Shown here piece by piece: positions 15,248 to 33,805 of a stretch of DNA of 64,000 bases. Where the stretch lies: NCBI GenBank assembly GCA_002841355.1, contig PHFB01000001.1, forward strand, positions 186,001 through 250,000. The letters are read 5' to 3'. The number at the start of each line of letters is the position of its first letter. Position 1 is the stretch's first letter. The notes beneath the pieces were generated by a model that was not told the DNA's origin, ran no database searches, and was given only the letters and a program-made list of their open reading frames with translations. The stretch comes from Actinobacteria bacterium HGW-Actinobacteria-1. Its GTDB lineage: Bacteria > Actinomycetota > Coriobacteriia > Anaerosomatales > Anaerosomataceae. The position numbers were made by a program, and so were the translations under genes.

Positions 15248-16966
15248 ATGGCAGTCGCACTGAAGATGTCCGGCACGTACACGCCTACGCTCAAGGAAGA
15301 TCCGTCCGAAGCGGAAGTCATCTCGCATCGGCTGCTTCTGCGCGCGGGGATGATCCGCAAGGTCGCCGCCGGCATCTATACGTTCCTGCCGCTTGCATGG
15401 CGCTCCATCCGCAAGATCGAGCAGATCGTCCGAGAAGAGATGGAGGCGATCGGCTCGCAGGAGCTCATGCTGCCGATCGTCCAGCCCGCCGAGCTCTGGC
15501 ATGAGTCGGGTCGCTGGGACCTCTACGGTCCCGAGCTGGCGCGCCTGCAGGACCGCAGCGGTCGCGACTTCTGCCTCGGGCCCACGCACGAGGAGATCAT
15601 CACCGACCTCGTGCGCGATGAGGTTCGCAGCTACCGCGATCTGCCGCTCTCGCTCTTCCAGATCAACATGAAGTTCCGCGACGAGGCGCGTCCGCGCTTC
15701 GGCCTCCTGCGTGGACGCGAGTTCATCATGAAGGACGCGTACTCGTTCCACGCCAGCCAGGAGTCGCTCCAGGAGCACTACGAGGCTCAGGCGCGCGCGT
15801 ACGGCAACATCTGCGACCGTCTCGGACTGGCGTGGCGACCGGTTGAGGCCGACTCGGGACAAATCGGCGGCAAGGTCACAACCGAGTTCATGGCGCTTGC
15901 CGAGAGCGGCGAGGCCGCGCTTGTCTACTGCGATTGCGGCTGGGCCGCGAACGAAGAGGCGGCGGGCACCGTGGTGCCGCGCACGCCCGGCGTCACCGAG
16001 CCCCGCCCGCTGGAGAAGGTGCACACGCCCGAGATCCGCACGATCGCGGAGCTTGCGGAGTTCCTCGGGATACCGGGGCACGACACCGTCAAGACGATGG
16101 CCGGAAAGACCGCCGAGGGACGCCTCGTGTACTTCTGCGTGCCCGGCGACCGCGAGCTCAACCCGATCAAGGCCGACTGGGCAGTGCCCGGCGTGGAGCT
16201 GCTCGACGAGGAGGACTTCAAGACGCTCGGGATCCCGAAGGGGTCGCTCGGCCCTGTGGCACCGCCCGCCGGGACGCTCGTTGTGGCTGACGCGAGCCTG
16301 AAGGACGAGGTCGCGTGGGGCGTGGGCGCGAACGAGAACGACTACCACCTGCTCGGCGCGATGCCCGGCCGGGACTTCGAAGTGGAGCTGTGGGCCGACC
16401 TCGTGCTCGCGCAGCCCGGCGACGGATGCCCCGAGTGCGGCGGCGTCCTCAAGGGCGCGCGCGGCATCGAGGTCTCGCAGGTCTTCCAGCTGGGAACTCG
16501 CTACTCCGAGTCGATGGGCGCAACGTTCACGGCCGAGGATGGCACCGAGCAGCCATTCCTGATGGGCTGCTACGGCGTAGGCATCACGCGCTCGCTGGCG
16601 GCCGTTATCGAGCAGTACAACGACGAGAACGGCATCGCGTGGCCGGTCTCGGTCGCGCCGCTTGAGGTGGCCGTGGTCCCGCTGTCGGTTGGCGACGACG
16701 TGGTCTACCCGGTGGCCGAGCAGATCTGGCGCGAGCTTGCCGCTGCAGGCGTTGAGGTCATCCTCGACGACCGCGACGAGCGCGCTGGCGTGAAGTTCAA
16801 CGACGCCGACCTCATCGGCTGGCCGTACCAGGTCGTCGTGGGCAAGAAGGGCGTGGCCGCTGGCATCGTCGAAGTGAAGACGAGAGCGACAGGGGAGCGC
16901 GCCGAGGTCCCGATTGCCGACGCAGTTGCGATGGTCGCCGAGATGGTCCTGGCCGCGAAGGCGTAG
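15248..16966 (+). CDS. proS: Prolyl-tRNA synthetase
   Basis: 572 residues, bacterial-type ProS with the class II core, an editing (YbaK-like) domain inserted at about 225-390, and the C-terminal anticodon-binding domain. Motif 2 is seen in FRDEARPRFGLLRGREFIMKD split around residue 150, and motif 3 in GCYGVGITRSLAA. ATG 15248 has AAGGAGCT upstream. The usual neighbours downstream of proS are rimP-nusA; here they lie 17 kb away because an accessory island intervenes. No sequence oddity in the gene itself. Confidence 0.96.
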   Translation: MAVALKMSGTYTPTLKEDPSEAEVISHRLLLRAGMIRKVAAGIYTFLPLAWRSIRKIEQIVREEMEAIGSQELMLPIVQPAELWHESGRWDLYGPELARLQDRSGRDFCLGPTHEEIITDLVRDEVRSYRDLPLSLFQINMKFRDEARPRFGLLRGREFIMKDAYSFHASQESLQEHYEAQARAYGNICDRLGLAWRPVEADSGQIGGKVTTEFMALAESGEAALVYCDCGWAANEEAAGTVVPRTPGVTEPRPLEKVHTPEIRTIAELAEFLGIPGHDTVKTMAGKTAEGRLVYFCVPGDRELNPIKADWAVPGVELLDEEDFKTLGIPKGSLGPVAPPAGTLVVADASLKDEVAWGVGANENDYHLLGAMPGRDFEVELWADLVLAQPGDGCPECGGVLKGARGIEVSQVFQLGTRYSESMGATFTAEDGTEQPFLMGCYGVGITRSLAAVIEQYNDENGIAWPVSVAPLEVAVVPLSVGDDVVYPVAEQIWRELAAAGVEVILDDRDERAGVKFNDADLIGWPYQVVVGKKGVAAGIVEVKTRATGERAEVPIADAVAMVAEMVLAAKA

Positions 16967-17074
16967 GAGGAGCGGCGGGTTGGCGCTTACACGGACTGCG
17001 TACGACAACCCACAAAGAGGACAGCTCGCACTCACGCAGAAGATGGATGCTGCGACCGTGGATTCTGCGGTCGG

Positions 17075-17092
17075 GTTAAGTGAGGGTTAGGG
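17075..17092 (+). other. Left boundary of the cassette array (possible attI or R' remnant)
   Basis: Between proS and the first cassette gene the sequence contains GTTAAGT (17075-17081), a perfect GTTRRRY core, and 11 bp on, GTTAGGG (17086-17092), a near match. In the intact sites downstream the GTTAGAC core is followed within 20-110 bp by the next start codon, as here. It could be the crossover point next to a lost integrase or attI. The rest of an attI site is not recognisable, so this is only a candidate. Confidence 0.35.
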
Positions 17093-17111
17093 CCATAGGG
17101 GAGGCGTTGAA

Positions 17112-17690
17112 TTGGGCTTCCGTCTCAGAGACGTCGAGACCGACGACCTTGAGGTCGTTCATGCGGCTGACGCGCGGTATCGCGAACATCTGAGGCGATT
17201 CGACACCGAGTCCAACGGCACCCTGTGGAAGTACTTCTACTGGGACTTCTTCCATGACGGATGGCTGACGCGGTTCTCGGTCGGGGATGACTTGCGGACC
17301 GTCGAGCTCTCGATCGTCTGCCCCAACATCGAGCGGTTCGATGACACTGGCGCGTATGAGTGCGTCGATGCCGCTTTCGACGTCGAGTTGCGACACGTAG
17401 TCGAACTTGCGATGAGCGTCGATCCCCCTGGCGCGGTCGATGAGGAACTGTGTTGCGCGACACTCCTGTACACGGAGATCAACACGTCGCCCTTAGCGGC
17501 TTCGCTATCCGCGGCTGATCCAGATGGCGTCCAGTGGTGCTCGCTGATGATCGAGTTCGACCTCGGCGGTCCAACCCTGTGGCTTGAAGCGGTGTTCCGG
17601 GACGTATCGGTCGTGCCGCAGGAGCCGGTCGCATTCTCGGCCATGGAGGCAGACCCGCGCTTCAAGATTGGGACGTACCCTAGGCCCTAA
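17112..17690 (+). CDS. Cassette 1: hypothetical protein
   Basis: 192 residues from TTG 17112, with AGGGGAGG upstream. The family was not recognised. It looks soluble: no signal peptide or membrane segment, acidic composition, and a beta-rich pattern (LRTVELSIVCPNIERF, EINTSPLAASL, VAFSAMEADPRFKIG). The stop codon TAA (17688-17690) lies inside the R'' core of the following attC site, a packing typical of integron cassettes. It is the first gene after the proS boundary and so should be the most recently acquired if the array grows from the left. Confidence 0.72.
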   Translation: MGFRLRDVETDDLEVVHAADARYREHLRRFDTESNGTLWKYFYWDFFHDGWLTRFSVGDDLRTVELSIVCPNIERFDDTGAYECVDAAFDVELRHVVELAMSVDPPGAVDEELCCATLLYTEINTSPLAASLSAADPDGVQWCSLMIEFDLGGPTLWLEAVFRDVSVVPQEPVAFSAMEADPRFKIGTYPRP

Positions 17691-17770
17691 CCCGCGCATA
17701 CAGCAGACGCGCCAAGCGCTAGACTTGATGAGAGGCATCGGCGCGCAGCTGATGCGCTAATACGTTAGAC
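17685..17770 (+). repeat. attC site 1 (intact)
   Basis: 86 bp. R'' CCCTAAC (17685-17691; first base departs from RYYYAAC) and R' GTTAGAC (17764-17770). Inner arms GCGCATACAGC and GCTGATGCGC pair with one unpaired A. The loop holds GCGCTAGACT and GGCATCGGCGC, shared with the other sites. Confidence 0.88.
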
Positions 17771-17793
17771 ACAGCAGGTGAGACGGGGGACTC

Positions 17794-18450
17794 ATTCCTG
17801 GGGAAGCAACACGCCGCGCGTGGATACGGAGAGGGCTGATTGCCCTGGCCGTTGCCGGCTGGTGTGCCCTGCTGCTGCTCGTCGCCGTGCTTATCCTGCC
17901 AGGACCTCTCGTCCATGCGGTAGGCGTCGTGGCCGGAGAGATTCCCTGGGACGCGCACTTGTTCTACGTAGAGGGGCCCCAGTGGCAGTCGTGGCCGCCG
18001 AAGGTCACCATCGAAGCCGGCTGGCACACGTGCGGGCGCGCGGCCGACGAGTTCGAGACAGGTGGCTTCGTGCTGAGCATCCCGCCGACTGCAAGCAGCG
18101 GGCTGGGATCGCAGCCCAGAGCGGTCTCCGACTGGACAACACTCATCGATTGTCCCGTTCAGGGTTCTGTCGCCTTCTCCGCTCAGGCCGTCGGGACGGA
18201 TTCGGCGGAGATGCCCGGGGATCTTCCCACGCTTTACGTCGAGCTGCCGTCCGGGTACGCCGACACCGCCATCGAACGAACGATCGCAGTCACGGTCCCG
18301 TATGACGTCGTGGTCGTGGATTCCTCGGGTGCGGTTGTAGATCGCACGGTCGTCGAGGAGGCACTGGCCTCCGCTTCCGCGGTCAGGATCGAGGCCCGAG
18401 ACATCGGCGGTTCGCTGTGGGCCAAGCGCATCCAGCTGATGGAGCCGTGA
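17794..18450 (+). CDS. Cassette 2: membrane-anchored hypothetical protein
   Basis: About 218 residues if initiation is at ATT 17794, which lies 4 nt after GGGGG. The first conventional start in frame (GTG 17887) would cut into an obvious signal-anchor (RRGLIALAVAGWCALLLLV), so an upstream start or a small frameshift from the GTG at 17778 is more credible. The rest is extracytoplasmic with beta-rich stretches and two Cys (WHTCGRAADEF and IDCPVQGSVAF) that could form a disulphide. No known family was recognised. attC sites lie on both sides. Confidence 0.62.
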   Translation: MPGEATRRAWIRRGLIALAVAGWCALLLLVAVLILPGPLVHAVGVVAGEIPWDAHLFYVEGPQWQSWPPKVTIEAGWHTCGRAADEFETGGFVLSIPPTASSGLGSQPRAVSDWTTLIDCPVQGSVAFSAQAVGTDSAEMPGDLPTLYVELPSGYADTAIERTIAVTVPYDVVVVDSSGAVVDRTVVEEALASASAVRIEARDIGGSLWAKRIQLMEP

Positions 18451-18469
18451 TGCGCGCTGTCAGTGGCGT

Positions 18470-18556
18470 GTCTAACCCGCGCATACAGCAGATGCGACAA
18501 CCGCTAGACTTGGGTGGAAGGCATCGGCGCACAGCTGATGCGCTAATACGTTAGGC
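18470..18556 (+). repeat. attC site 2 (intact)
   Basis: 87 bp. R'' GTCTAAC (18470-18476) and R' GTTAGGC (18550-18556). Arms GCGCATACAGC and GCTGATGCGC flank a loop with CCGCTAGACT and GGCATCGGCGC. Confidence 0.9.
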
Positions 18557-18577
18557 ATAAGTGAGCGGGGGGTCGCG

Positions 18578-19030
18578 ATGCGCAACGTAGTCCGCTTCGG
18601 AGTCCCGTTCACTTGCATCGTGCTCGTCCTTTCGCTTGCAGGCTGCACTGCCTTTCTTGGTGGGCACGAATCGCCGACGCCGTCGACCGCGCTCGACGTG
18701 ATGCAGGCGATCGTGGATGGCGACTCGCAGACGTTGTCGGCAGCGTACGGGACCGACCTGGGCGACGATGACGTGAGGGTTCTGCGGACGGACCTCTTCG
18801 GCCAGCTTGGGTCGCTCTCGCTGGGAAGCCCTGCCGCTGTCGAGGTACCGGGCGAGCGCTCAGCGACGCGGAGGGTGTATCGGGTCACGACCGGGCTAGT
18901 CGATGACTCAGCCGCCGGTGTCATCGCGGCACCGACGGTCGTACAAAGCGAGTTCGATGTCGTCTTCGGCCTCAAGTCGGGACGCTGGGTCGTGACGGAG
19001 ATCGTGCGCGTTGACGGTGTCGCGCCCTAG
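18578..19030 (+). CDS. Cassette 3: putative lipoprotein
   Basis: 150 residues. A lipoprotein signal peptide ends in the lipobox LAGC (residues about 22-25), so the mature protein should be lipid-anchored outside the membrane. The remaining 125 residues resemble small secreted proteins with an NTF2-like or DUF4878-like pattern (ALDVMQAIVDGDSQTLSAAYG and a C-terminal FGLKSGRWVVTEIVRVDG), but this is only a fold-level guess. ATG 18578 follows GAGCGGGGGGTCGCG. It sits alone between attC sites 2 and 3. Confidence 0.72.
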   Translation: MRNVVRFGVPFTCIVLVLSLAGCTAFLGGHESPTPSTALDVMQAIVDGDSQTLSAAYGTDLGDDDVRVLRTDLFGQLGSLSLGSPAAVEVPGERSATRRVYRVTTGLVDDSAAGVIAAPTVVQSEFDVVFGLKSGRWVVTEIVRVDGVAP

Positions 19031-19069
19031 CAGTGTCTCGCCTGCGCCTGGCTGGGTCGTCGGCACTAT

Positions 19070-19156
19070 GCCTAACCCGCGCATCCAGCTGACGGCCAGG
19101 AGCGCTAGACTTGTTGAGGGCGCAGAAGCCGCAGCTGATGCGCAAGTACGTTAGAC
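19070..19156 (+). repeat. attC site 3 (intact)
   Basis: 87 bp. R'' GCCTAAC (19070-19076) and R' GTTAGAC (19150-19156). Arms GCGCATCCAGC and GCTGATGCGC pair with one unpaired C. The loop begins TGACGGCCAGGAGCGCTAG, a subtype shared with site 6. Confidence 0.9.
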
Positions 19157-19178
19157 ACATGCGGGGAGCTGCCACCGG

Positions 19179-19982
19179 ATGGATACATCACAGGCAATTC
19201 GTGACACTGAGAACGCGTTGCGCGACTTCATCAGCGCGGTGCTGTCTCGCTCACTCGGATCTGATTGGGTGGTTCGGTGCGGAGTATCGCCGGAGCGGCT
19301 CGACCGTTGGGCTGAGCGCAGGACCGCGGAGCTATCGCGTCAGGCTGGAGGAGCAGTTGAAGAGCGCCTCATATACTTCGCAGACTTCTATGACTTGAAG
19401 ACGATTCTGAAGAAGCACTGGGCGGGCGAGTTCTCGGATGTGCTCGGTGACTGGAAGACCATGGACGTCTACTTGTCGCAGCTGGAGTACTTCAGGGATC
19501 CGTCCGCTCACGGACGTGACTTGCTCCCGCATCAACGCGATCTGATATGCGGGATTACGGGGGAGATACGTGGGCGCATCGTGCGCTATCGGAGCAAGCG
19601 CGAGACGGCTCAGGATTGCTTCCCGCGGTTCGAAAGCGTGCGCGACAGCCTTGGGAATGTGTGGACTGCTGGGCAGTCCAGTCGCATCGCGTTGAATACT
19701 GAGATGGTTCTACGTCCTGGCGACACAGTCGACTTCATGGCCGCCGCGCGTGATCCAGAGGATGGCCCGTTGGAGTACTCCGTTCGCGTGATGCCCGGCC
19801 CGTCTCACGAAGAAGTCTGGCAGGTGGAACCCGAGTTTCGTGTGACCATGACGGATGAGCAGATCGGAGACGCCGTCTTTGTCTATCTTCAAGTGCGTAG
19901 CTCGCGCGAATATCACGCGAGGGGCAGGCTTGATGATGAAGTGACCTTCATCTATACGGTCCTACCACGCCGCAGTGTCTAA
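19179..19982 (+). CDS. Cassette 4: Swt1-type HEPN domain protein
   Basis: 267 residues. The N-terminal part (about 1-145) looks like a Swt1-type HEPN domain: alpha-helical, with ADFYDLKTILKKHW and then RDPSAH (Arg106, His111), a match to the RX4-6H motif that forms the RNase active site in many HEPN proteins. The C-terminal part (about 165-265) is beta-rich (LRPGDTVDFMAAARDPEDG) and resembles a cadherin/PKD-like sandwich. HEPN proteins often act in RNA cleavage during phage defence or as toxins; no antitoxin gene accompanies it. The stop codon lies inside the R'' of attC site 4. Confidence 0.68.
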   Translation: MDTSQAIRDTENALRDFISAVLSRSLGSDWVVRCGVSPERLDRWAERRTAELSRQAGGAVEERLIYFADFYDLKTILKKHWAGEFSDVLGDWKTMDVYLSQLEYFRDPSAHGRDLLPHQRDLICGITGEIRGRIVRYRSKRETAQDCFPRFESVRDSLGNVWTAGQSSRIALNTEMVLRPGDTVDFMAAARDPEDGPLEYSVRVMPGPSHEEVWQVEPEFRVTMTDEQIGDAVFVYLQVRSSREYHARGRLDDEVTFIYTVLPRRSV

Positions 19983-20062
19983 CCAGCGCATCCAGCAGAT
20001 GCGGCAAGCGATAGACTGATGGAAGAAGATAGGCGCACTGCTGATGCGCTCATACGTTAGAC
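19977..20062 (+). repeat. attC site 4 (intact)
   Basis: 86 bp. R'' GTCTAAC (19977-19983) and R' GTTAGAC (20056-20062). Arms GCGCATCCAGCAG and CTGCTGATGCGC form the longest inner stem of the set, with one unpaired C. The loop variant is GCGATAGACT. Confidence 0.9.
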
Positions 20063-20086
20063 ACATGCGTGGAGACCGGGGGCAAC

Positions 20087-20908
20087 GTGAGACCGAGAAC
20101 GCACCGCAGGCTTGTGAAGGTCAGCCAGAACGCTTCTGACACTAGAGCGGACTCATCCAGCGATCACGGCGGACTAGTCGCGCTGCTACTCACGGCGGGT
20201 GGCTACGCAGCCATCTACTACTTCCGCATCGGACAAGCCCAGTACTTCACTGTTCCCGCGGAACTCGTTTCGCTGGACTTGAACGACGTCGTAGCGGGTG
20301 GAATCACTCTGACGGTGTTGCTTCTGCTTGTCGTGTTCCTCGGCGACCAGCTCCTGCAGTTTGTGGAGGGCGAGCTTCCAGGTGAGGTCCAGGACCGACT
20401 GAAGGCCCTAGTCATTACCACCTTTTACTTTGCGACGTTTGTGTACCTGCTCGGCGCCCCCGTGATCTGGTATCTCGGTGTCGCAACAGCGGCGGCGACG
20501 TTCGCCTTCATGCAGTTCCTGCTTCCCGTATTTACGGAGCGTCGTGTCTCCGGGTACGCCGCGAAGCTGGAAGCCGATTCACGCAGGACGTCTTCCATGT
20601 CGCATTCTCCACTCGTGAGATTGCTGAGGGGTCATCGGCAGCTGTTCTTGCCGTTCCTTGGAGTGGCGCTGGCGGTGCTCCTGGCTCAGCCGGCCGGTGT
20701 CTACAGTGCTAGGACTCGTGTGTCCTTCACGGTCGTTCCCGGTTCGCCTGATCGTGTCGTGGTCGCAGAATACGAGGGTTCGCTGGTGACGCTTGCTCTG
20801 GACAGGGAGTCTTCGACCTTGAGCGGCCCTGTTGAGGTCCATTCGGCAGAGGGGCTTGCCAACGGTCTTGTGGTAGAAGAGCTTGGGCCGCTGAGAGTGG
20901 TGGAGTGA
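20087..20908 (+). CDS. Cassette 5: multi-pass membrane protein, function unknown
   Basis: 273 residues from GTG 20087, chosen because CCGGGGGCAAC lies just upstream. At least four hydrophobic segments are visible: GGLVALLLTAGGYAAIYYF, GGITLTVLLLLVVFLGD, ALVITTFYFATFVYLLG through the VATAAATFAFMQFLLPV region, and FLPFLGVALAVLLAQPAG. A charged cytoplasmic loop and a C-terminal beta-rich domain of about 70 residues (RVSFTVVPGSPDRVVVAEYEG) follow. No family was recognised. It lies between attC sites 4 and 5 as a single-gene cassette. Confidence 0.7.
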   Translation: MRPRTHRRLVKVSQNASDTRADSSSDHGGLVALLLTAGGYAAIYYFRIGQAQYFTVPAELVSLDLNDVVAGGITLTVLLLLVVFLGDQLLQFVEGELPGEVQDRLKALVITTFYFATFVYLLGAPVIWYLGVATAAATFAFMQFLLPVFTERRVSGYAAKLEADSRRTSSMSHSPLVRLLRGHRQLFLPFLGVALAVLLAQPAGVYSARTRVSFTVVPGSPDRVVVAEYEGSLVTLALDRESSTLSGPVEVHSAEGLANGLVVEELGPLRVVE

Positions 20909-20924
20909 TCTTCCATCGGCAGGT

Positions 20925-21010
20925 GTCTAACCAGCGCATCCAGCAGACGCGGCAGGCGCTAGACTGAGTGGAAGGCATCGGCGCGCAGCTGATGCGCAAA
21001 TGCGTTAGAC
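20925..21010 (+). repeat. attC site 5 (intact)
   Basis: 86 bp. R'' GTCTAAC (20925-20931) and R' GTTAGAC (21004-21010). Arms GCGCATCCAGC and GCTGATGCGC; loop with GGCGCTAGACT and GGCATCGGCGC. Confidence 0.9.
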
Positions 21011-21043
21011 AGAACAACCGTGATCGTCTGGGGGGAGTCCGAG

Positions 21044-23842
21044 ATGCGTCGAACGTTCCTGGTGGGGTTGTCGGTCGCGCTAGTACTTGCATCCGCGCAA
21101 TTCGCCGTGGCAGTGCAACAGCCTGCGGCGAGCTGGAAGTGGGCGTCGCCGCAACCTACGCTTAACGGGCTTAACGCCATCAGCATGCTTCCCTCGCACG
21201 CCGGGTGGACTGTTGGGCAGAGCGGGATGATTCTGCACACGTCGGATGGAGTGACTTGGGCGGTGCAGGACTCGGGAACGTCGGTCGAGCTGATGGACGT
21301 TCATGCGATTGATGCACTTCGCGTGTGGACCGTTGGCGATCAAGGGACCATACTCGCCTCCACCGACGGGGGCGTCACCTGGTCTCCGAGATCGTCTGCG
21401 ACAACAGTGGACCTCAACGCCATCACCTTCACTGATGCCAAACACGGTTGGGCTGTCGGTAGGGACGGAGTGGTGCGTGCCACGACCGATGGCGGCGTTA
21501 CCTGGAAGTCCCAGATCACGCCAACGCCCTATGAGCTGCTGAGTGTGACATTCGCAGACTCCGCGCACGGATGGATTGGTGGAATCGGCGGAGTGCTGCT
21601 TCATACCAATGACGGCGGGGTTCATTGGACCGAACAGGATCCCGGGCCGACAGTCACCTACCCTGGCTGGCACTTGGAGGAGATTCACGCGACCAGCGCC
21701 CTTGTTGCAACCGTCGTCGGGTGGGGCGGTTCGATTCTCAAGACGACTGACGGTGGCGCACACTGGTCATGGAGCAATATCGGTGTCGTTACCGACATCT
21801 ACGCGGGCGCTTTCCTCGGCAGCGAAGGGTGGGTGGTCGGTCACGGTGGCATGGTGCGGCACATCGAAGCCGGTGGCACATGGGATGATCAGCTCACCCC
21901 GACATCTAATGCTCTGCGCGATATCGAGTTCAACGATACCTCGGAAGGCTGGGCTGTCGGCGATGCCGGCACGATTCTTCACACCACCAATGGTGGCGTC
22001 AGCTGGTCAGCGGAGAATGTCGCTTTGATTCCCGGAACCGTGCGTGACGTCTCCTTCGCCACTACCTCCACCGGCTGGGCCGTGGGCGACAACGGGGGCA
22101 TCGTCCGCACGGGCGACGGCGGAGCGACGTGGTCGATGCAGTCATATGCGGAAGCGGATGGGCTCTCGGGCGTGTTCGCTCTGGACAGTCAGAACGCCTG
22201 GGCTGTATCCGACAACGCCGTCATCAGAACGAACGATGGCGGCACGACATGGGCGCCTCAGGAATCGGGAATCTTTGAGTTTGGCACCAACTTCCGCGAC
22301 GTGTGGTTCCAGGATGCTTCAGAGGGTTGGGCTGTCGGAGGCGTGAACATTGACGCCGGCAGCCCCATGGTGCATACCTCGGACGGCGGACGGACGTGGC
22401 AGCAGACGGCCATAACCTCCGGTGTCTCACTCACATCGATCTGCTTCTCCAGCTACGACCACGGATGGGCTGTGGGTCAATTCGGCTGTGTTCTCGAGAC
22501 GACAAATGCAGGGGAGACCTGGACTCGTCGTGATCTGGGTACTCTGCGGACTCTGTCCTCGGTGGCTTTCGCAGATGCGAGCAACGGCTGGATCGTTGGT
22601 GAGCGGGGAACGATCTTTCACACGACCGATGGCGGAGTCACGTGGCAAACTCAGGCGGGTGCTGTGACCGACCTGTACGCCGTCTCATCGTACGACGGCG
22701 TACACGGCTGGGCGGCCGGCGAAGGCGCCAAAGTCGTGTACACCTCGGATGCCGGTCTCCATTGGGTGGAGCAGAATCCTGGGACTCGAAACACGCCTGT
22801 GAACTTCATGTGCATCGAGGCCACTGGACAGGACGAGGCATGGCTGGGTGGGACGGGGGGAGTCCTACTACACACCGTGAATGGCGGCTCGCTGGGAGCA
22901 CTTGGCGTTGAGGCCGTTGCTGGAGACGACAGGTATCAGACTGCCGTCCGAGTCTGCTCGTCCCGTTTCCCGTCCGCGACGACTGTCGTCGTCGCTACTG
23001 GCCAGAACTGGCCCGACGCACTTGGTGGCGCGTCTCTGGCCGGGGCGTATGGTAGCCCAATTCTGCTAACGCGGCCGGACGTGCTTCCCGGAGTCGTAGA
23101 ACAAGAGATTGCGCGCCTAGGGGCGACGAACGCGATTGTCCTCGGCAGCGAGAAGGCAGTGTCGGAAGCCGTCGTCACGAGGCTCCGAGACAGCCTGCAC
23201 CTCTCAGTCAAGCGCATCGGTGGTGCCGATCGATACGAGACCGGAGACGCGGTCGCGGCTGCGACGCTCGAGCGACTGAGCAACAGTAACCAAACATGGG
23301 ACGGCACGATCTTCGTCGCTACTGGCGCCAACTTCCCGGACGCGCTTGCTGCGGCCCCACTTTCTAGTGCGTGGTCGCGCCCCGTACTTCTCGTGGCACC
23401 CACTCGACCAGCGTCGGACGCTAGCGCTCGTGCACGCTCGTTGGAAGCCTCACGAGCATGCCTGCTTGGCAGTAGCGCAGCGGTATCGGTGACGGTCGAG
23501 CAAGCCCTCACGTCGACCCTCTTAGGAGGTGTCCTGCGGCTGCAAGGTGCGACTCGCTATCAGACCGCCGCCGCAATCGCCGAGTATGGCGCAGCCAACG
23601 GCCTTAAATGGGATGGAGTCGCGCTTGCGACGGGCCAGAACTACCCAGATGCGCTTGCGGGCGGAGTCGCGCAGGGGCATGTCGGACGACTGATGCTGTT
23701 GACGCCCAGCACGTCACTAGACAGCGCACCAGCCCGTGATCTTTACGGGCACAAGTCGGCAATCAGGGGAGTGGCATACTTCGGTGGAACAGGTGCCCTG
23801 TCGAACTCCGTTCGCGGGGCCGTGGCCGCGTTGCTCCGGTAG
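21044..23842 (+). CDS. Cassette 6: large secreted YCF48-repeat protein with CWB2 cell-wall-binding repeats
   Basis: 932 residues from ATG 21044, preceded by GGGGGGAG. A signal peptide (RRTFLVGLSVALVLASAQFAVA) is followed by about a dozen repeats of roughly 45 residues with the pattern GWAVG..G.ilhT.DGG.tW, as in photosynthesis-system-II assembly YCF48/sialidase-like beta-propellers. From about residue 625 three cell-wall-binding 2 repeats follow (GDDRYQTAVRV, GADRYETGDAV, GATRYQTAAAI, each with ATG.NxPDAL). It is thus an exported surface protein held non-covalently on the wall, probably an adhesin or scaffold. At about 2.9 kb the cassette is far larger than usual. Confidence 0.85.
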   Translation: MRRTFLVGLSVALVLASAQFAVAVQQPAASWKWASPQPTLNGLNAISMLPSHAGWTVGQSGMILHTSDGVTWAVQDSGTSVELMDVHAIDALRVWTVGDQGTILASTDGGVTWSPRSSATTVDLNAITFTDAKHGWAVGRDGVVRATTDGGVTWKSQITPTPYELLSVTFADSAHGWIGGIGGVLLHTNDGGVHWTEQDPGPTVTYPGWHLEEIHATSALVATVVGWGGSILKTTDGGAHWSWSNIGVVTDIYAGAFLGSEGWVVGHGGMVRHIEAGGTWDDQLTPTSNALRDIEFNDTSEGWAVGDAGTILHTTNGGVSWSAENVALIPGTVRDVSFATTSTGWAVGDNGGIVRTGDGGATWSMQSYAEADGLSGVFALDSQNAWAVSDNAVIRTNDGGTTWAPQESGIFEFGTNFRDVWFQDASEGWAVGGVNIDAGSPMVHTSDGGRTWQQTAITSGVSLTSICFSSYDHGWAVGQFGCVLETTNAGETWTRRDLGTLRTLSSVAFADASNGWIVGERGTIFHTTDGGVTWQTQAGAVTDLYAVSSYDGVHGWAAGEGAKVVYTSDAGLHWVEQNPGTRNTPVNFMCIEATGQDEAWLGGTGGVLLHTVNGGSLGALGVEAVAGDDRYQTAVRVCSSRFPSATTVVVATGQNWPDALGGASLAGAYGSPILLTRPDVLPGVVEQEIARLGATNAIVLGSEKAVSEAVVTRLRDSLHLSVKRIGGADRYETGDAVAAATLERLSNSNQTWDGTIFVATGANFPDALAAAPLSSAWSRPVLLVAPTRPASDASARARSLEASRACLLGSSAAVSVTVEQALTSTLLGGVLRLQGATRYQTAAAIAEYGAANGLKWDGVALATGQNYPDALAGGVAQGHVGRLMLLTPSTSLDSAPARDLYGHKSAIRGVAYFGGTGALSNSVRGAVAALLR

Positions 23843-23881
23843 ACGCTCATGGCTTTCTGAGCGACGAGGAGGGGTGTGTCC

Positions 23882-23968
23882 GTCTAACCCGCGCATACAG
23901 CTGACGGCCAGGAGCGCTAGACTTGTTGGGGGCGCATGGGACACAGCTGAAGCGCAAGAACGTTAGGC
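23882..23968 (+). repeat. attC site 6 (intact)
   Basis: 87 bp. R'' GTCTAAC (23882-23888) and R' GTTAGGC (23962-23968). Arms GCGCATACAGCTG and CAGCTGAAGCGC pair with one unpaired base and one mismatch. The loop TGACGGCCAGGAGCGCTAG matches site 3. Confidence 0.88.
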
Positions 23969-23993
23969 ACAACATCAGAAGGGGGACGGGCGC

Positions 23994-24341
23994 TTGAGCG
24001 AGACTCGCGTCTCATCGACACGATCGGATGAAGCCGCACGGGGGGTATTCGTCGCAAGGGCATCCACAGAGGAGCTCGCCCGGCTGGTCAACGAGCGAGC
24101 GGGCAGCACGACCAATCTAGCAGTCTTGCTGGGGGTGGCAGCGGGCGCGACACTCGGCAGCATGCTTGGGGCGCTGTCTGGCGAGGCGGTCGTTACGTTG
24201 CTGCTGATGGCCGCAGGCGGGGCCCTCGGATTCACAGTCGGACGCTCCGCCGGTGGTGCGATCGAGGCGGCGTTGCGCATTGTCGTCAGAACCGCTATCG
24301 CGGACGACGCGGGTGATCTCCCTGGACTGCAGGCTGACTGA
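23994..24341 (+). CDS. Cassette 7: small glycine-rich membrane protein
   Basis: 115 residues from TTG 23994, preceded by GAAGGGGGACGGG. The N-terminal third is polar; two adjacent hydrophobic Gly/Ala-rich segments follow (TNLAVLLGVAAGATLGSMLGAL and VVTLLLMAAGGALGFTVG), which could form a hairpin membrane anchor. Family not recognised. It begins right after intact attC site 6, but downstream only an R''-like heptamer remains, so this cassette has apparently lost most of its own attC. Confidence 0.62.
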   Translation: MSETRVSSTRSDEAARGVFVARASTEELARLVNERAGSTTNLAVLLGVAAGATLGSMLGALSGEAVVTLLLMAAGGALGFTVGRSAGGAIEAALRIVVRTAIADDAGDLPGLQAD

Positions 24342-24365
24342 CCCATTCAGGGCCGCTTGGTGTGT

Positions 24366-24372
24366 GCCTAAA
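24366..24372 (+). repeat. R''-like half-site (possible attC remnant)
   Basis: GCCTAAA differs from the R'' form GCCTAAC of site 3 by its last base and sits 24 bp after the cassette 7 stop. No inner arms or R' follow before the signal peptidase start. It may mark an attC deletion that fused cassette 7 to the next gene; a chance match is possible. Confidence 0.3.
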
Positions 24373-24397
24373 TCCGCTGGACCAGATTGGAGGGTGC

Positions 24398-24991
24398 ATG
24401 TTTCTCCGTCACAAGCGCGCTCGCGCGGCGGGATCCGAGCCGCGGGAAGAGCAAGTGGCCTCGTTCGGCAGGTGGCTGCTCGAGACAGTCTTCCTCATCG
24501 TCCTCGCCTTCACCATCGCGCAGGCCGCTCGGGCATACGCGATTCAGCCATATGTCGTGCCGACAGGCTCCATGATTCCGACGATCGAGATCCAAGACCG
24601 CGTTCTGGTCGAGAAGATCACATACAGGGTCGTCCGCTCTCCCGCACGAGGCGAGGTCGTCGTTTTCGACAATCCGCACCCGACGTCGGCACTCGACAAG
24701 ATACTCATCAAGCGCGTGATAGCCACGGAAGGCCAAACAGTCGATATCTACGACGATGCTGTTTGGGTCGACGGGGTAGCCCTCGACGAGCCGTACGTGC
24801 ACGGCAAGCCGACATTGCCGGGGACGGTTATGACGCCAATCACCATTCCTGAGGGCCAGGTGTGGCTCATGGGCGACAACCGTACGAACAGCGGTGACAG
24901 CCGCTTCTTCGGTCCACAACCCGTCTCGAAAGTCCGGGGTCGCGCAATCTGGACGTACTGGCCCCCAAAGGAGTTTGGCGAGTTGGAGTAG
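24398..24991 (+). CDS. lepB: Signal peptidase I
   Basis: 197 residues from ATG 24398, with TTGGAGGG immediately upstream; an upstream GTG (24362) has no RBS. A single membrane segment (WLLETVFLIVLAFTIAQAARA) is followed by the catalytic Ser58 in VVPTGSMIPTI and the general-base Lys105 in ILIKRVIA, and by the conserved box LMGDNRTNSGDSRFFGP. It therefore looks like an active leader peptidase that cleaves Sec signal peptides outside the membrane. It lies inside the cassette array, followed by a nearly intact attC, so it is probably an accessory copy. The organism should have another lepB elsewhere. Confidence 0.92.
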   Translation: MFLRHKRARAAGSEPREEQVASFGRWLLETVFLIVLAFTIAQAARAYAIQPYVVPTGSMIPTIEIQDRVLVEKITYRVVRSPARGEVVVFDNPHPTSALDKILIKRVIATEGQTVDIYDDAVWVDGVALDEPYVHGKPTLPGTVMTPITIPEGQVWLMGDNRTNSGDSRFFGPQPVSKVRGRAIWTYWPPKEFGELE

Positions 24992-25017
24992 AGGCCTGAG
25001 GCTCTCGGCGACATCAC

Positions 25018-25100
25018 GCATACCTGGGCATTCAGCAGACACACCAAGCGTAGACTAGGTCTGAGGCATCCCGCGCAGCTGACGCGCATGCATGTTGGAC
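25018..25100 (+). repeat. attC site 7 (nearly intact)
   Basis: 83 bp. R' GTTGGAC (25094-25100) matches GTTRRRY, but the R'' position reads GCATACC. Inner parts are clearly homologous to sites 1-5: GGCATTCAGCAGAC, CCAAGCGTAGACT (one base shorter), GAGGCATC, and CGCGCAGCTGACGCGC. Confidence 0.78.
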
Positions 25101-25124
25101 CGAACCGCGAGAACGGAGTGACGG

Positions 25125-25883
25125 ATGGAGCCCATCAGCGAGGATCGTCGTTCGTTCGCGATGTCCTCGGATGAACTCCGTCGGCGGGAGGGAGCCTTCG
25201 ATCGACTCGGACTGAGTACCATCGTCGCGTTCGCCATCGCCTCCGCCGACCTGTTCGCAGTACATCTCCCGGTGCTGCTTGCCGGAATCGTGTGCCTCGC
25301 GACGCTCGTCGTTGCATCCCGGGTCTGGCTGGCAGCCGGGAATCGCAGGTACGCTCACACGACCTGGGATGTCGGTGATGACACGCTCACACGCATCGAT
25401 GCTCGTTCCGTCCATGAGTATCAGCTGAACTCCATCCGACACGCGCAAGCCAAGAGGAATACCGCTGGCGTCATCCGCGAGATCAAGCTGAGTTTCGACG
25501 ACGGGTCGGCAGTCTATGTGAACGGCCTTGAAGACACCGAGTCGTTTTGGGACTTCCTGAGTTCGAGAGTCACCAGGGCATCCCACGTCTTCGTGCGCGA
25601 GCCGATCGATTACGACCACCCCTTGTTCTACGTCGCTTTGGGCTCCGTGCTCGGCGCTTCGATAAGCCTCATCGTGAGGTTCGCTGCGTCAGCCCCTCAC
25701 CTCAGCGGGCACTGGGTCTATGTGGCACTTGCGGTCTACTCCTTCGCCGTCAGCGTCTACTGGTCGCGCGCCAAACCCATTTCTGGTCGCTACGGACTTG
25801 GAGCGATCACGTGGGATCGTGCGACAGCCGCAATCGCCTTTGTCTGCTTCGTCGGCTCCACGATTGCCGCCGCAATGTTGTAG
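25125..25883 (+). CDS. Cassette 9: membrane protein with a PH-like middle region
   Basis: 252 residues from ATG 25125 with GAACGGAGTGACGG upstream. Four hydrophobic segments are arranged as two pairs: TIVAFAIASADLFAV / LLAGIVCLATLVVASRV, then VALGSVLGASISLIVRFAA / VYVALAVYSFAVSVYW, plus a final IAFVCFVGSTIAAAML. The soluble part between them (GDDTLTRIDARSVHEYQLNS, EIKLSFDDGSAVYVNG) resembles bacterial PH domains, though this is only a pattern impression. Function unknown. attC 7 lies before it and a left-half attC remnant after it. Confidence 0.65.
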   Translation: MEPISEDRRSFAMSSDELRRREGAFDRLGLSTIVAFAIASADLFAVHLPVLLAGIVCLATLVVASRVWLAAGNRRYAHTTWDVGDDTLTRIDARSVHEYQLNSIRHAQAKRNTAGVIREIKLSFDDGSAVYVNGLEDTESFWDFLSSRVTRASHVFVREPIDYDHPLFYVALGSVLGASISLIVRFAASAPHLSGHWVYVALAVYSFAVSVYWSRAKPISGRYGLGAITWDRATAAIAFVCFVGSTIAAAML

Positions 25884-25904
25884 AAGGCGACCTGGGCTCA
25901 GCTA

Positions 25905-25947
25905 GCTCGGCAGTCCAGCAGAAGGCGCCTCTGCACGTAGACATGAC
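25905..25947 (+). repeat. attC remnant (left half)
   Basis: CTCGGCAGTCCAGCAGAAGG and CACGTAGACATGA align with the L'' arm and loop of site 7 (GGCATTCAGCAGAC, GCGTAGACTAG). The right half and R' are missing before the next gene. Confidence 0.5.
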
Positions 25948-25970
25948 CCAAGAGAATCGAGAACCGTATC

Positions 25971-26792
25971 GTGCTACTGAACCTCATCAGTGAGTGGCAA
26001 GGCTGTGAGAGCCGGTGTCTCGAATCAGGTTCTCGCGCCGTTGCGGCCGAACTCTTCGCCGGCCGCGAGTATGTCGACCTCACGATCCCTGTGTGTGACA
26101 CTCCCTCCGTGCGTGACGACGTGTTCGCGTTCGACTGCGTACTTGACCAGGCACGTCACGCCTTGCGTTCCCTGGAGGCGAGATCAGAAGAGCGTGTGTT
26201 CACGGTGGGTGGGACGTGTGGCGCGGAAGCCGCACCCGTCGCGTATCTGTCCCATCGCTACCCCGACCTAGGCGTGATATGGCTCGATGCGCACGGAGAC
26301 CTGAACACTCCCGCAACCTCGCCCAGTGGACACTTCCACGGCATGGTCTTGCGCACGCTGCTCGGTGACGGACCGCCCGATCTCACCGAGCTACTCGCCC
26401 CCGCACTGAGACCGGAGCGCGTTGTCGTTGCCGGGGCGCGCGATCTAGACGTTCCCGAGCGCTCGTTCATCGACTCTGCGGGAATCGGTCTCGTCCAAGG
26501 ATGGCCTCCGGATACAGGCGACATCATCATCGCTCGTCTTCACTCGGCAGCGGTCCGACACGTCTATGTCCACGTCGATGTGGACGTGTTCGACCCAACC
26601 ACTTTCGGTGACGCGCTGTTCAAGGTCGAAGGAGGTCCGGCGCCGGATTCGGTTGCCGCTGCGGTTCGCAGGATCACGAGCGAGTTCGACCTCGTGGGCG
26701 TGGGGCTGGTCGAGTCGTGCGGCCGAGATGAGACCGGGCCTCGTGCGCTCAAAGCGTTCGCACAGCAGGCAGGCGTGTGGCCGGCGTACTAG
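25971..26792 (+). CDS. Arginase/agmatinase/formimidoylglutamase family hydrolase
   Basis: 273 residues from GTG 25971. Ureohydrolase landmarks: WLDAHGDLN (Asp106, His108, Asp110), SGHFHGMVLRTLLG, and HVDVDVFDP (Asp203, Asp205), all of which supply Mn ligands in this family, plus a C-terminal VGVGLVESCG. The first metal motif, normally GGDH, reads VGGTCGAE here, so a His ligand is replaced by Cys as in a GGDC-type subgroup. It probably cleaves a guanidino or amidino substrate; which one is unknown. The start codon has only a weak RBS. Its flanks carry degenerate attC sequence. Confidence 0.82.
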   Translation: MLLNLISEWQGCESRCLESGSRAVAAELFAGREYVDLTIPVCDTPSVRDDVFAFDCVLDQARHALRSLEARSEERVFTVGGTCGAEAAPVAYLSHRYPDLGVIWLDAHGDLNTPATSPSGHFHGMVLRTLLGDGPPDLTELLAPALRPERVVVAGARDLDVPERSFIDSAGIGLVQGWPPDTGDIIIARLHSAAVRHVYVHVDVDVFDPTTFGDALFKVEGGPAPDSVAAAVRRITSEFDLVGVGLVESCGRDETGPRALKAFAQQAGVWPAY

Positions 26793-26873
26793 CCCGTGCT
26801 TCCGGTCGACTCTTGCTCACGCTACGCTGACATGAGACCGCTTGCTCGCAGCGGACCCACGAACACGTTGGTC
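26791..26873 (+). repeat. attC site (degenerate)
   Basis: CACGCTACGCTGACATGAG aligns with the loop (GCGCTAGACTTGATGAG) of site 1, and ACACGTTGGTC (R' GTTGGTC at 26867-26873) ends the region just before an RBS and start codon. R'' and the inner arms are eroded. Confidence 0.5.
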
Positions 26874-26890
26874 ATACCGGAGGAGCTTGG

Positions 26891-27409
26891 ATGTCCGAAG
26901 ACTCGTCCTTCGAGTTGCGCCCGCTGATTGGCAATCCCGAAGATCTGCTCGAGGTTCAGCGCTTACTCGAGAGCGCGCCCGACTACGCCGAAGCGATCCA
27001 GGGTGCGCCGTTCGATTCTCATGAGGCAACCCGTACCTTCGAGGAGCTTCCTCCCGGCGTTGCCCGCTCGGCCAAGACGGTCATCGGTATCTACTCGGGC
27101 AATGAGCTTGCCGGTGTGATCGACCTGATCGATGGTTTCCCCGTACCAACGACCGCGATGCTTGGGCTGCTCCTGATTGCTGGCACCCATCGCCGCCGAG
27201 GTCTCGGCACCCGTGCGGCGCGCGCAGTCGAGGATCTGGTTTCCTCCTGGGGAACGTGTGACCGCATCCGCATCGGGGTCGTCCGCACAAACGAACCCGC
27301 TCTCGTCTTCTGGAAGGCCACCGGCTATTCAGCGACAGGGGAGCAGCGACCCTGGGAGGAGGGTGCAGTGCGCTCAGAGGTGATCGTCATGGAGAAGCTG
27401 ATCGGCTGA
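26891..27409 (+). CDS. GNAT family N-acetyltransferase
   Basis: 172 residues from ATG 26891 with GGAGGAGCTTGG upstream. The GNAT core is visible: ELAGVIDLIDGFP (beta strand), AMLGLLLIAGTHRRRGLGTRAARAVEDL (motif A with the acetyl-CoA-binding R-R-R-G-L-G-T), and VVRTNEPALVFWKATGYSATG (motif B). Substrate unknown. GNATs are among the most common genes in chromosomal integron cassettes, which fits the location. Degenerate attC sequences lie on both sides. Confidence 0.88.
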   Translation: MSEDSSFELRPLIGNPEDLLEVQRLLESAPDYAEAIQGAPFDSHEATRTFEELPPGVARSAKTVIGIYSGNELAGVIDLIDGFPVPTTAMLGLLLIAGTHRRRGLGTRAARAVEDLVSSWGTCDRIRIGVVRTNEPALVFWKATGYSATGEQRPWEEGAVRSEVIVMEKLIG

Positions 27410-27422
27410 CCCGCAGGTGGGG

Positions 27423-27506
27423 CGCCCAGCCGTGCTTTCAGCAGATGCGACAAGCGCTAGACTAAGTGGATGGCATTGGTGCACTGCTCGTGCTCAGACG
27501 TACCCG
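27423..27506 (+). repeat. attC site (degenerate)
   Basis: 84 bp. The left arm and loop are well kept (GTGCTTTCAGCAGATG, CAAGCGCTAGACTAAGTGG, TGGCATTGGTGCAC), but R'' reads GCCCAGC and R' reads GTACCCG, so both core sites are mutated and the site should not recombine. Confidence 0.72.
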
Positions 27507-27528
27507 TCGTGTTTCTGGGAGGTCAATC

Positions 27529-28170
27529 TTGCTAGGGCCCGATCCGGATACGAAACACCCCATGACAGGCTTCCCGCAGGTCTGTTTCATCAAGAACACC
27601 GTTTCTAACCCCAATATCCTTATCGGGGACTTTACCTACTACGACGATCCAGTCGATTCCGAGGACTTCGAGCGAAACGTCCTCTACCACTACCCCTTCT
27701 ATGGCGACAAGCTGATCATCGGCAAGTTCTGCGCCCTGGCCACTGGCGTGCGGTTCATCATGAACGGTGCGAACCACAAACTGACGAGCCCCTCGACGTA
27801 TCCCTTCAGTCTGTTCGGCAACGGGTGGGAGCGCGTCACTCCGTCACTCGAAGACCTGCCCATCAAGGGAGACACGGTTGTTGGAAACGACGTGTGGATC
27901 GGCTACGAGTCACTGGTGATGCCAGGAGTTCACATCGGCGACGGTGCCATCGTCGCCGCACGGTCGGTGGTCGTCTCCGATGTCGCTCCGTACACGATCG
28001 TCGGCGGCAATCCGGCCAGGCCTATTCGGCAACGCTTCTCGCAAGATGTCATCGACCGCCTGCTTGAGATCGCGTGGTGGGACTGGGACGTGCACGAGAT
28101 CACTCACAACCTCGAGGCCATCGTCTCGGGCGACGCGGACGCACTTCTGGCAAGCCAACGAAACGGCTAA
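27529..28170 (+). CDS. Vat-family streptogramin A O-acetyltransferase homologue
   Basis: 213 residues from TTG 27529, chosen because GGAGGT lies 5 nt upstream and the N terminus then aligns with Vat proteins (GPDP...). ATG 27562 is the alternative. A left-handed beta-helix xenobiotic acetyltransferase: FIKNTVSNPNILIGDFTYYD, LYHYPFYGDKLIIGKFC, IMNGANHKL with His83 at the catalytic position, STYPFSLFGNGWE, PIKGDTVVGNDVWIG, then APYTIVGGNPARPIRQRF. Close similarity to Vat rather than to the CatB relatives is clear in the GNGW and NGANH blocks. It acetylates streptogramin A antibiotics in known members. The stop codon lies inside a degenerate R''. Resistance is an inference. Confidence 0.88.
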   Translation: MLGPDPDTKHPMTGFPQVCFIKNTVSNPNILIGDFTYYDDPVDSEDFERNVLYHYPFYGDKLIIGKFCALATGVRFIMNGANHKLTSPSTYPFSLFGNGWERVTPSLEDLPIKGDTVVGNDVWIGYESLVMPGVHIGDGAIVAARSVVVSDVAPYTIVGGNPARPIRQRFSQDVIDRLLEIAWWDWDVHEITHNLEAIVSGDADALLASQRNG

Positions 28171-28247
28171 CCCGGGTATTCGTCGGGTTGTAAGCGGTAG
28201 ACTTGGCCGGTAGGTGTTGGCACGCGGCTGATACCTGAATGCGCTCG
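28165..28247 (+). repeat. attC site (degenerate)
   Basis: R'' GGCTAAC (28165-28171) departs by one base and contains the TAA of the upstream gene. Arms CGGGTATTCG and CTGATACCTG partly pair, and the loop keeps AAGCGGTAGACTTGG. The R' position reads GCGCTCG, so it is lost. Confidence 0.62.
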
Positions 28248-28267
28248 AAGGGGACAGGAGGCATCCG

Positions 28268-28552
28268 ATGCGAATCCAAGCCAACATCGACAACTCGACC
28301 ATCGAGTTCACCCGGAACTGGTTCACCGGACGAGCGACGCTGGTGGTAGACGGAACCCCAACGACACTCGCAAGCCCGTACGCGCTCAAGACGCAGATCA
28401 ATCTCAGCGGTCAGAATCGCTACGTTGCGACGGTCGGGGGTCGCGAGTTGGTCATCGAGCATCGCATGCACTTCCCGTTCCCGGCGTTTCGACCCATGGA
28501 CTTCCGACTCCTGCTCGACGGTGAGTTGCTTGCCGAGCAGAGCGGATTCTAG
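28268..28552 (+). CDS. Small hypothetical protein
   Basis: 94 residues from ATG 28268, with GGGACAGGAGGCATCCG upstream. No membrane segment; a beta-rich pattern (FTRNWFTGRATLVVDGTPTT, KTQINLSGQNRYVATVGG, FRLLLDGELLAE) suggests a small all-beta protein. The family was not recognised. It follows a degenerate attC and is separated from the next gene by only 28 bp, with no attC between, so the two may share a cassette. Confidence 0.7.
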   Translation: MRIQANIDNSTIEFTRNWFTGRATLVVDGTPTTLASPYALKTQINLSGQNRYVATVGGRELVIEHRMHFPFPAFRPMDFRLLLDGELLAEQSGF

Positions 28553-28580
28553 CTACGCCCGGGCCGTAAGTGAGAATCCC

Positions 28581-29042
28581 GTGAGAAACCTCGAGCTGGT
28601 GGTCCCGCCCGACGTCGTCGCGCTCGTCATCGTCGGCGTCATGTGGGGCGTGTCGCGCCTCGGCGCGGCGATTCCGCTCGCTCCCGTCCTCCGCAACCTG
28701 CTGGGAGCAGTTCTCGTGCTCGTTGGACTCGCAGTCATCATCGCTGCGCGCAAAGCGTTCGCACAGCGTGACACCCCCTGGGGGCCACAAACCCCATCGC
28801 GCGCGTCAGCGCTGGTCACCGATGGCGTCTACGGTTTGAGCCGCAACCCCATGTACCTCGGCACGTGGGTCTTCCTGCTCGGCATCGGCGTGATGATGGG
28901 CAGCTACTTCTCGGCGGCCAGCTCGCTCCTCTACAGCGTGTACATCGACCGCTTCCAGATCGTGCCCGAGGAGCGGGCGCTTGCGCTGAAGTTCGGGCAG
29001 GAGTTCGATTCGTACCGCACGGCGGTCCGACGCTGGTTCTAA
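28581..29042 (+). CDS. Isoprenylcysteine carboxyl methyltransferase-like membrane methyltransferase
   Basis: 153 residues from GTG 28581; the reading frame is open further upstream but overlaps the previous gene. Membrane segments VVALVIVGVMWGVSRLG and LLGAVLVLVGLAVIIAARK precede the family hallmark LVTDGVYGLSRNPMYLGTWVFLLG, and the C terminus has IVPEERALALKFGQEFDSYRTAVRRW. This is the ICMT/PEMT-type SAM-dependent methyltransferase fold; bacterial members have unknown substrates, possibly lipids or small hydrophobic compounds. A fragment of attC loop follows the stop. Confidence 0.85.
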   Translation: MRNLELVVPPDVVALVIVGVMWGVSRLGAAIPLAPVLRNLLGAVLVLVGLAVIIAARKAFAQRDTPWGPQTPSRASALVTDGVYGLSRNPMYLGTWVFLLGIGVMMGSYFSAASSLLYSVYIDRFQIVPEERALALKFGQEFDSYRTAVRRWF

Positions 29043-29100
29043 GTCCGTGAACGAGCGCTAGACTTATGAGGACGCGCGGCTGCCTGTGATCCGGCCGATG
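29043..29100 (+). repeat. attC remnant (loop fragment)
   Basis: GAACGAGCGCTAGACTTATG and GACGCGCGGCTG match the loop and the start of the L' arm of the intact sites. No R'' or R' core is left. It is the last recognisable attC-like sequence in the island. Confidence 0.5.
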
Positions 29101-29130
29101 CCCAGCGCGAGACACACGAGAGGGACTACC

Positions 29131-29478
29131 GTGGACAAGCATCGCGTGTTCGGCATGGAGTTCGCGAAGGTCTATCCGCTCTACATCAAGAAGGCGGAAC
29201 GCAAGGGCCGCACGAAGGATGAAGTCGACCAGATCATCTTCTGGATGACCGGATACGACCGTGAGGGGCTGCAGCGGCAGCTCGACGAGCACAGTGACAT
29301 CGAGACGTTCTTCACACAGGCGCCGGCGATGAATCCCAACTGCTCGCTCATCAAGGGCGTGGTCTGCGGTGTACGGGTCGAAGAGGTAGAGGACCCTTTG
29401 ATGCAGAAGATCCGCTTCCTCGACAAACTGGTCGACGAGCTCGCCAAGGGGAAAGCGATGGAGAAGATCCTGCGCTAG
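29131..29478 (+). CDS. DUF2200 family protein
   Basis: 115 residues from GTG 29131, with GAGAGGGA upstream. The sequence [20 protein letters not shown], then the [11 protein letters not shown] block and [20 protein letters not shown], identify DUF2200, a small soluble family widespread in bacteria and frequently found on cassette arrays and plasmids. Its function is unknown. The C-terminal [15 protein letters not shown] is also conserved. A loop fragment of attC precedes it; none is seen after it. Confidence 0.87.
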
Positions 29479-29520
29479 CATCAACACGCACACGTAAACA
29501 CCCCATCAAGGATGGTGAAC

Positions 29521-29976: not shown

Positions 29977-30056
29977 ACGTCGTACGGGTTAGTATGGGAA
30001 GCGGCGGGGTCACAACGACACGTCGAATAGTCGGGGGCTACACGGGGGAGGGCACA

Positions 30057-30776: not shown

Positions 30777-30812
30777 CCAACACAGCCAAGTCATCACGAG
30801 AGTGGAGCACCC

Positions 30813-31558: not shown

Positions 31559-31573
31559 AGGCCCCTGAGAGCG

Positions 31574-32128: not shown

Positions 32129-32170
32129 GCGTGAAACGCGTCATCATGTTCAACGAGGAACGGGGGAGTC

Positions 32171-32671: not shown

Positions 32672-32705
32672 CCAGTAGCACACCGCGCACGAGAGGATTC
32701 GCTTC

Positions 32706-33784: not shown

Positions 33785-33805
33785 CGCCAAGCACGCTCGC
33801 GCGGT

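Follow-up and report, generated by a model that had tools for sequence, protein, structure and literature searches.

The question raised by this locus is how integron attC sites and cassette genes, with no integrase gene beside them, came to stand between proS and rimP in a bacterial chromosome, and which integrase would have assembled them. The window, i.e. the whole stretch of DNA that was analysed, comprises 64,000 nucleotides (positions 186,001 to 250,000) of contig PHFB01000001.1 of Actinobacteria bacterium HGW-Actinobacteria-1. The assembly is a draft of 2.44 Mb in 28 contigs, with a completeness of 97.9% and a contamination of 0.2%. In a proS comparison, the gene was 97% identical to that of Actinobacteria MAG 1MN72D_65_13 and 86% identical to that of HGW-Actinobacteria-6. 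The genomes G018 and G017 belong to the genus of the host, and G007 and the Anaerosomatales isolate Yes46-06 to its family. The host is therefore assigned to the order Anaerosomatales (Coriobacteriia, Actinomycetota), which agrees with the probable actinobacterial host that an earlier note had named from gene content.

In several relatives ispG, proS, rimP, nusA and infB are contiguous, proS being followed directly by rimP, nusA, ylxR, infB and rbfA. In the window, the end of proS (16966) and the start of rimP (33913) are separated by plus-strand cassettes totalling about 16.8 kb (approximately 16,970-33,800), and this segment is considered an insertion because the two genes adjoin in the relatives. 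Both flanks belong to the chromosomal ispG-proS/rimP-nusA operon, and all predicted cassette genes are co-oriented with it. The GC content is 61.9% within the insertion and 64.7% outside. The span of 17685-23968 given in the earlier note proved too short; the array is about twice as long and the insertion reaches about 33.8 kb. The leader at 16986-17092 and four eroded attC sites (25018, 26788, 27432 and 28166) had been missed, the latter being added by a second covariance model (R2) made from 67 diverse sites. No attC site was detected with the covariance models among the genes between 28.4 and 33.8 kb. The features are as follows.

15248-16966, plus strand: proS, proline--tRNA ligase, left flank (NF006625, 758 bits); rimP is next in relatives
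16986-17003, plus: distal motif M1 of the leader, CTTACACGGACTGCGTAC, 19 bp after the proS stop; the same motif stands just after intI stops across the order
17062-17092, plus: simple site of the leader with GTTAGGG junction (17086-17092), exactly 100 bp from M1
17112-17690, plus: cassette 1, hypothetical gene (ORF), stop codon within attC R''
17686-17772, plus: attC 1, 105.8 bits
17887-18450, plus: cassette 2, hypothetical gene (ORF; alternative ORF 17778-18305)
18471-18558, plus: attC 2, 100.5 bits
18578-19030, plus: cassette 3, hypothetical gene (ORF), N terminus lipoprotein-like by eye
19071-19158, plus: attC 3, 85.6 bits
19179-19982, plus: cassette 4, gene with HEPN_Swt1 domain (PF18731, 1e-6; PADLOC PDC-M34B, 4e-10)
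19978-20064, plus: attC 4, 98.7 bits
20069-20908, plus: cassette 5, hypothetical gene (ORF), apparent membrane protein by eye
20926-21012, plus: attC 5, 105.9 bits
21020-23842, plus: cassette 6, gene for 940 aa with Ycf48-like repeats and three CWB2 cell-wall domains (PF14870, PF04122)
23883-23970, plus: attC 6, 80.9 bits
23994-24341, plus: hypothetical cassette gene (ORF)
24362-24991, plus: signal peptidase I gene (lepB-like) within the insertion (TIGR02227); an eroded attC comes next
25018-25102, plus: eroded attC 7, 42.1 bits (model R2)
25125-25883, plus: hypothetical cassette gene; a 68% identical relative lies in an array-head locus of G017 (L226)
25971-26792, plus: arginase-family protein (PF00491, 8e-22)
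26788-26875, plus: weak eroded attC, 19.9 bits, E 0.001
26891-27409, plus: GNAT acetyltransferase (PF00583)
27432-27498, plus: eroded attC, 40.3 bits
27466-28170, plus: Vat-family streptogramin A acetyltransferase gene, flanked by two attC remnants (NF000311, 332 bits, cut-off 300)
28166-28251, plus: eroded attC, last detectable, 46.9 bits
28425-33784, plus: remaining insertion with PEMT methyltransferase, DUF2200, Arr (29512-29976) and hypothetical genes
33913-34398, plus: rimP, right flank; homology to uninterrupted relatives resumes at about 33,800

The Arr rifampin ADP-ribosyltransferase also scored above its family cut-off. The array carries resistance-family genes of two kinds, Vat and Arr, in a subsurface lineage. 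An Arr protein 81% identical to that of the window is encoded near attC sites in G017 (L225).

All six proximal attC sites were found where the earlier note had placed them. When the window and the genome were searched with an attC covariance model, as it had proposed, all six scored as attC (81-106 bits); the first model was made from these six sites and three from another contig, and their own scores are partly given by construction. The cores (R'' and R'), the paired arms (L'' and L', with a single unpaired base) and the shared loop were likewise recovered. The nine aligned sites have the arrangement R''-L''-loop-L'-R' and 43 invariant columns in common, and in the consensus fold the R and L arms pair around one extrahelical base, with a six-base spacer between L' and R'. 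Compared with shuffled sequences, the bottom strand folded far better in several sites (z down to -4.5) and modestly better in others (z -1.3 to -2.2). No match to the attC sites was obtained in Rfam. The sites are independently supported because matches to the model are largely confined to the order of the host, occurring in 60 of its 69 genomes versus 2 of about 179 from the rest of the class. In the host genome, the covariance-model search yielded 29 attC sites at E < 0.004, located in four regions on contigs C1 (the window), C5, C14 and C21 and at one lone site, and one attC family is common to the four places. In two cassettes the TAA stop codon (at 17690 and 19982) falls within R'' of the attC site. 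One of the two matches outside the order is a convincing array of about ten attC sites of the same family, scoring up to 94 bits (G069 contig C7, L180; another family of the class), although IntI was not found in that genome.

The window contains XerC but no intI, and its contig extends far past both ends of the array. The earlier note had suggested looking for intI elsewhere in the assembly, and an intact gene was found on contig C5. The encoded IntI is full-length (TIGR02249, 482 bits, cut-off 265) and has the residues R140, K168, R274, H297 and Y306, of which R140, R274, H297 and Y306 are invariant in 29 IntI sequences of the order. The gene order on C5 is rlmKL, intI (co-oriented with the cassettes), a BrnTA pair, attI and a run of attC sites. 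The attI, GCGTTACACAGTCAGTACATTCATTGTTAGGC, lies between intI and the first cassette, and a similar site occurs in many genomes of the order. C5 therefore carries all the parts of a complete integron, namely intI, attC sites and an attI adjacent to intI, and its attC sites are of the same family as those of the window. Besides this integron and the window array, the genome has two further arrays. No LexA box was found upstream of intI in the host genus, neither of the Gram-positive type (8/10 or better) nor of the E. coli type; weak candidates occur elsewhere. The BrnT/BrnA toxin-antitoxin pair is situated between intI and the simple site of attI (L003:2556-3060), and homologues in the same position in several other genomes of the order look as if they were guarding the integron platform.

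The description of the window segment as a chromosomal integron cassette array was correct in that the array is real and chromosomal, but the segment itself lacks intI and is formally a CALIN, usually defined as at least two clustered attC sites with no intI nearby. CALINs are commonly expected to lack attI, which is not part of the formal definition, and this expectation does not hold for the window array. At its head, the motif M1, CTTACACRGACTGCRTA, follows the proS stop by about 20 bp, and a GTTAGG junction stands exactly 100 bp further on. Downstream of intI in the order, M1 (CTTACACAGACTGCATA) occurs 5-90 bp after most intI stops, and a simple site ending in TTGTTAGRC is located about 75-130 bp beyond it. 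The distance of 100 bp from M1 to GTTAG was also observed at proS of G018, at the dinG array of the host and at an intI-adjacent attI. The spacings of orphan leaders (99-146 bp) and intI-adjacent sites (100-154 bp) overlap and often coincide (100, 111, 113). In the window leader, the half formed by the simple site is degenerate relative to the intI-adjacent attI sites.

M1 follows proS in three of 27 family genomes, exactly the three with an attC array there, and it follows lysC, 17-24 bp past the stop, in exactly the four genomes that have an array at that gene. The motif was first noticed in the host, and lysC was examined afterwards as a second locus. With the discovery genomes excluded, M1 was present with the array in 2/2 cases versus 0/24 without it at proS, and in 3/3 versus 0 of about 22 at lysC. 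Of the intI-less array heads, 16 had 4 kb of upstream sequence; seven of these reached 15 bits, as did 9 of 960 shuffled sequences but no reversed control, and in the other nine heads the M1 match was below 15 bits. The leader is evidently part of an attI platform, because cassette insertion at a random site cannot bring M1. Three matches to the M1 pattern (two mismatches at most) within coding sequence of the host genome were taken as chance, and a leader is absent from the lone attC site at C21:395057.

Homology between the window and G018 is 89.6% up to position 17091, followed by unrelated cassettes, i.e. the proximal cassettes at proS have been completely turned over between the two genomes. 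This difference shows that cassette exchange at proS continued after the leader was in place, and the simplest agent of this exchange would be the IntI of the genome acting in trans. Further M1 heads were found at a dinG-like gene (in the host, and in G019 at a contig end), a permease gene (host C14), a carbonic anhydrase gene (G017) and fprA (G016). In G016, fprA is followed by a leader and an array without intI, while in ten family genomes fprA lies directly upstream of intI. In G026, dinG is upstream of intI, and the orphan simple site at lysC of G022 closely resembles the intI-adjacent site of the same genome. No remnants of intI were found at the orphan array heads. The gene order at fprA in G016 supports the loss of intI from an apparently complete integron, and that of G026 suggests such a loss at dinG. 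On contig C1 of G018 (L265, L288), a full dinG-like gene is followed about 2.4 kb on by a second copy of its 3' end and then M1, as if another element had inserted at the end of the gene.

We consider it probable that the proS-rimP array is a chromosomal integron array with its own attI-like head, built in trans by the single IntI encoded on C5. A somewhat doubtful, though by no means negligible, alternative is that a complete integron once stood at proS, lost its intI and has since ceased to recombine. The ancestral fprA locus of G016, with leader and array but no intI, and the eroded distal attC sites of the window would both fit such a history, but the proximal attC sites are intact, G018 has entirely different proximal cassettes at the same place, and intI was found at proS in none of the 27 family genomes. 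The array is unlikely to be an ordinary CALIN, with cassettes inserted at secondary attG sites or left by a decayed integron and a leader that is fortuitous or unused. CALINs occur widely, attG sites can serve as targets of IntI (PMC12444791), and part of the array is eroded; however, insertion at an attG would not bring M1 100 bp upstream of the crossover. Moreover, 24 relatives with an uninterrupted proS-rimP junction lack M1 there, each array at proS and lysC is accompanied by it, and the spacing of the leader equals that of true attI sites. That the contig is mis-binned or chimeric and derives from a proteobacterium or from some other bacterium with integrons is extremely improbable. This idea could draw on the draft state of the assembly and on some IntI homologues of other phyla that are 70-75% identical, but both flanks on the 434-kb contig are the host operon, and the same junction occurs in the independently assembled relatives G018 and G026. 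Ten genomes from five genera in which fprA adjoins intI, and the one-contig genome G009, which carries both intI and attC sites, also speak against it. A chimeric assembly was rejected on synteny, i.e. on the flanks and the insertion point shared by two relatives.

In the preferred reading of an array built in trans, the single C5 IntI would insert cassettes at the GTT of the proS attI-like site by attC x attI recombination. Transcripts of the cassettes would either read through from the ispG-proS operon or start at a promoter within the leader. Such platforms would exist at several sites, proS among them, each immediately behind a conserved gene (proS, dinG-like, lysC and fprA in various species). 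Most of the orphan platforms probably arose from integrons whose intI was lost, or as copies of attI. From sequence comparison we infer recognition of the leader by IntI, its activity in trans and the origin of the leader copies. Whether one chromosomal IntI serving several attI platforms, about 20 bp behind the stops of conserved genes, is a standing architecture of the order is nearly balanced, the chances leaning slightly against. If so, host operons may express captured cassettes, and the recurrence of intI-less arrays at the same loci would be explained by platforms headed by attI.

The earlier note had regarded an integron in this gene order as unusual, but intI is present in about two of every three genomes of the order. 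IntI was detected in 47 of 69 genomes (41 of the 51 of high quality). The rest of the class, about 330 genomes, gave no IntI, and a phylum sample of 396 genomes added 13 more genomes with it. The order fprA-intI in five genera is a sign of long residence, and rlmKL-intI occurs in four genomes of the host genus. As in sedentary chromosomal integrons, the location is stable (fprA-intI and rlmKL-intI) and the attC sites are homogeneous. In the IntI tree, for which the sample was gathered with the IntI of the host as query, the sequences of the order form one clade (95/95) with other Actinomycetota, within which some Planctomycetota, Spirochaetota, Omnitrophota and Thermodesulfobacteriota are nested. 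The inverted-integrase IntI clade of Treponema, planctomycetes and others is represented by rows in this tree. The integrons described here resemble that clade in having intI on the cassette strand and in the grouping of their IntIs with Planctomycetota, Spirochaetota and Omnitrophota, but differ in that most of the retrieved diversity is in Actinomycetota, in a sample gathered with the host's own IntI.

Since 2008 it has been asked whether integrons are truly absent from Actinobacteria (PMC2426708). With IntegronFinder 2.0, complete integrons were absent from Actinobacteria among complete genomes, and incompatibility with the genetic background was suggested (PMC9024848); a 2021 review lists Actinobacteriota among integron-bearing phyla without detail (PMC8618304). 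The frequency of intI in the order, most genomes of which have attC sites, argues that the gap is an effect of the sequencing sample. Freely accessible literature other than preprints yielded nothing relevant on integrons in Coriobacteriia, OPB41 or Actinomycetota, and the word "integron" is absent from the paper founding Anaerosomatales; integrons of this order could already be tabulated somewhere. Archaeal integrons were likewise first seen in draft genomes of a group thought to lack them, but IntI was present in only 6 of 75 integron-bearing archaeal genomes (PMC9668308), compared with 47 of 69 genomes of one order here.

Integrons and CALINs as such are already known, and a Shewanella prophage provides one case of a CALIN that has an attI of its own (PMC9892861). 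That intI-less array is similarly headed by an attI copy with intI nearby, but it concerns a single prophage, whereas here several chromosomal platforms stand at conserved genes in many species and the attI sequence is different. For Xanthomonas, the accessible text describes a sedentary chromosomal integron that is ancestral and stands at a conserved gene (intI downstream of ilvD), with attC sites that are homogeneous and with intI-less arrays (CALINs) at recurrent loci (PMC12444791); in contrast to the actinobacterial host studied here, those integrons are proteobacterial and mostly decayed, and attI-like leaders at CALINs are not described in that text. What appears to be new is an order-wide actinobacterial chromosomal integron with several attI-headed platforms, and attI sites that recur at particular loci without intI suggest an origin for CALINs that can be tested. 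The cassettes at proS of G018 also include DndB-like, ThsB-like TIR and PDC-M50A genes (L170:3490-5800), a candidate defence module delivered by cassettes.
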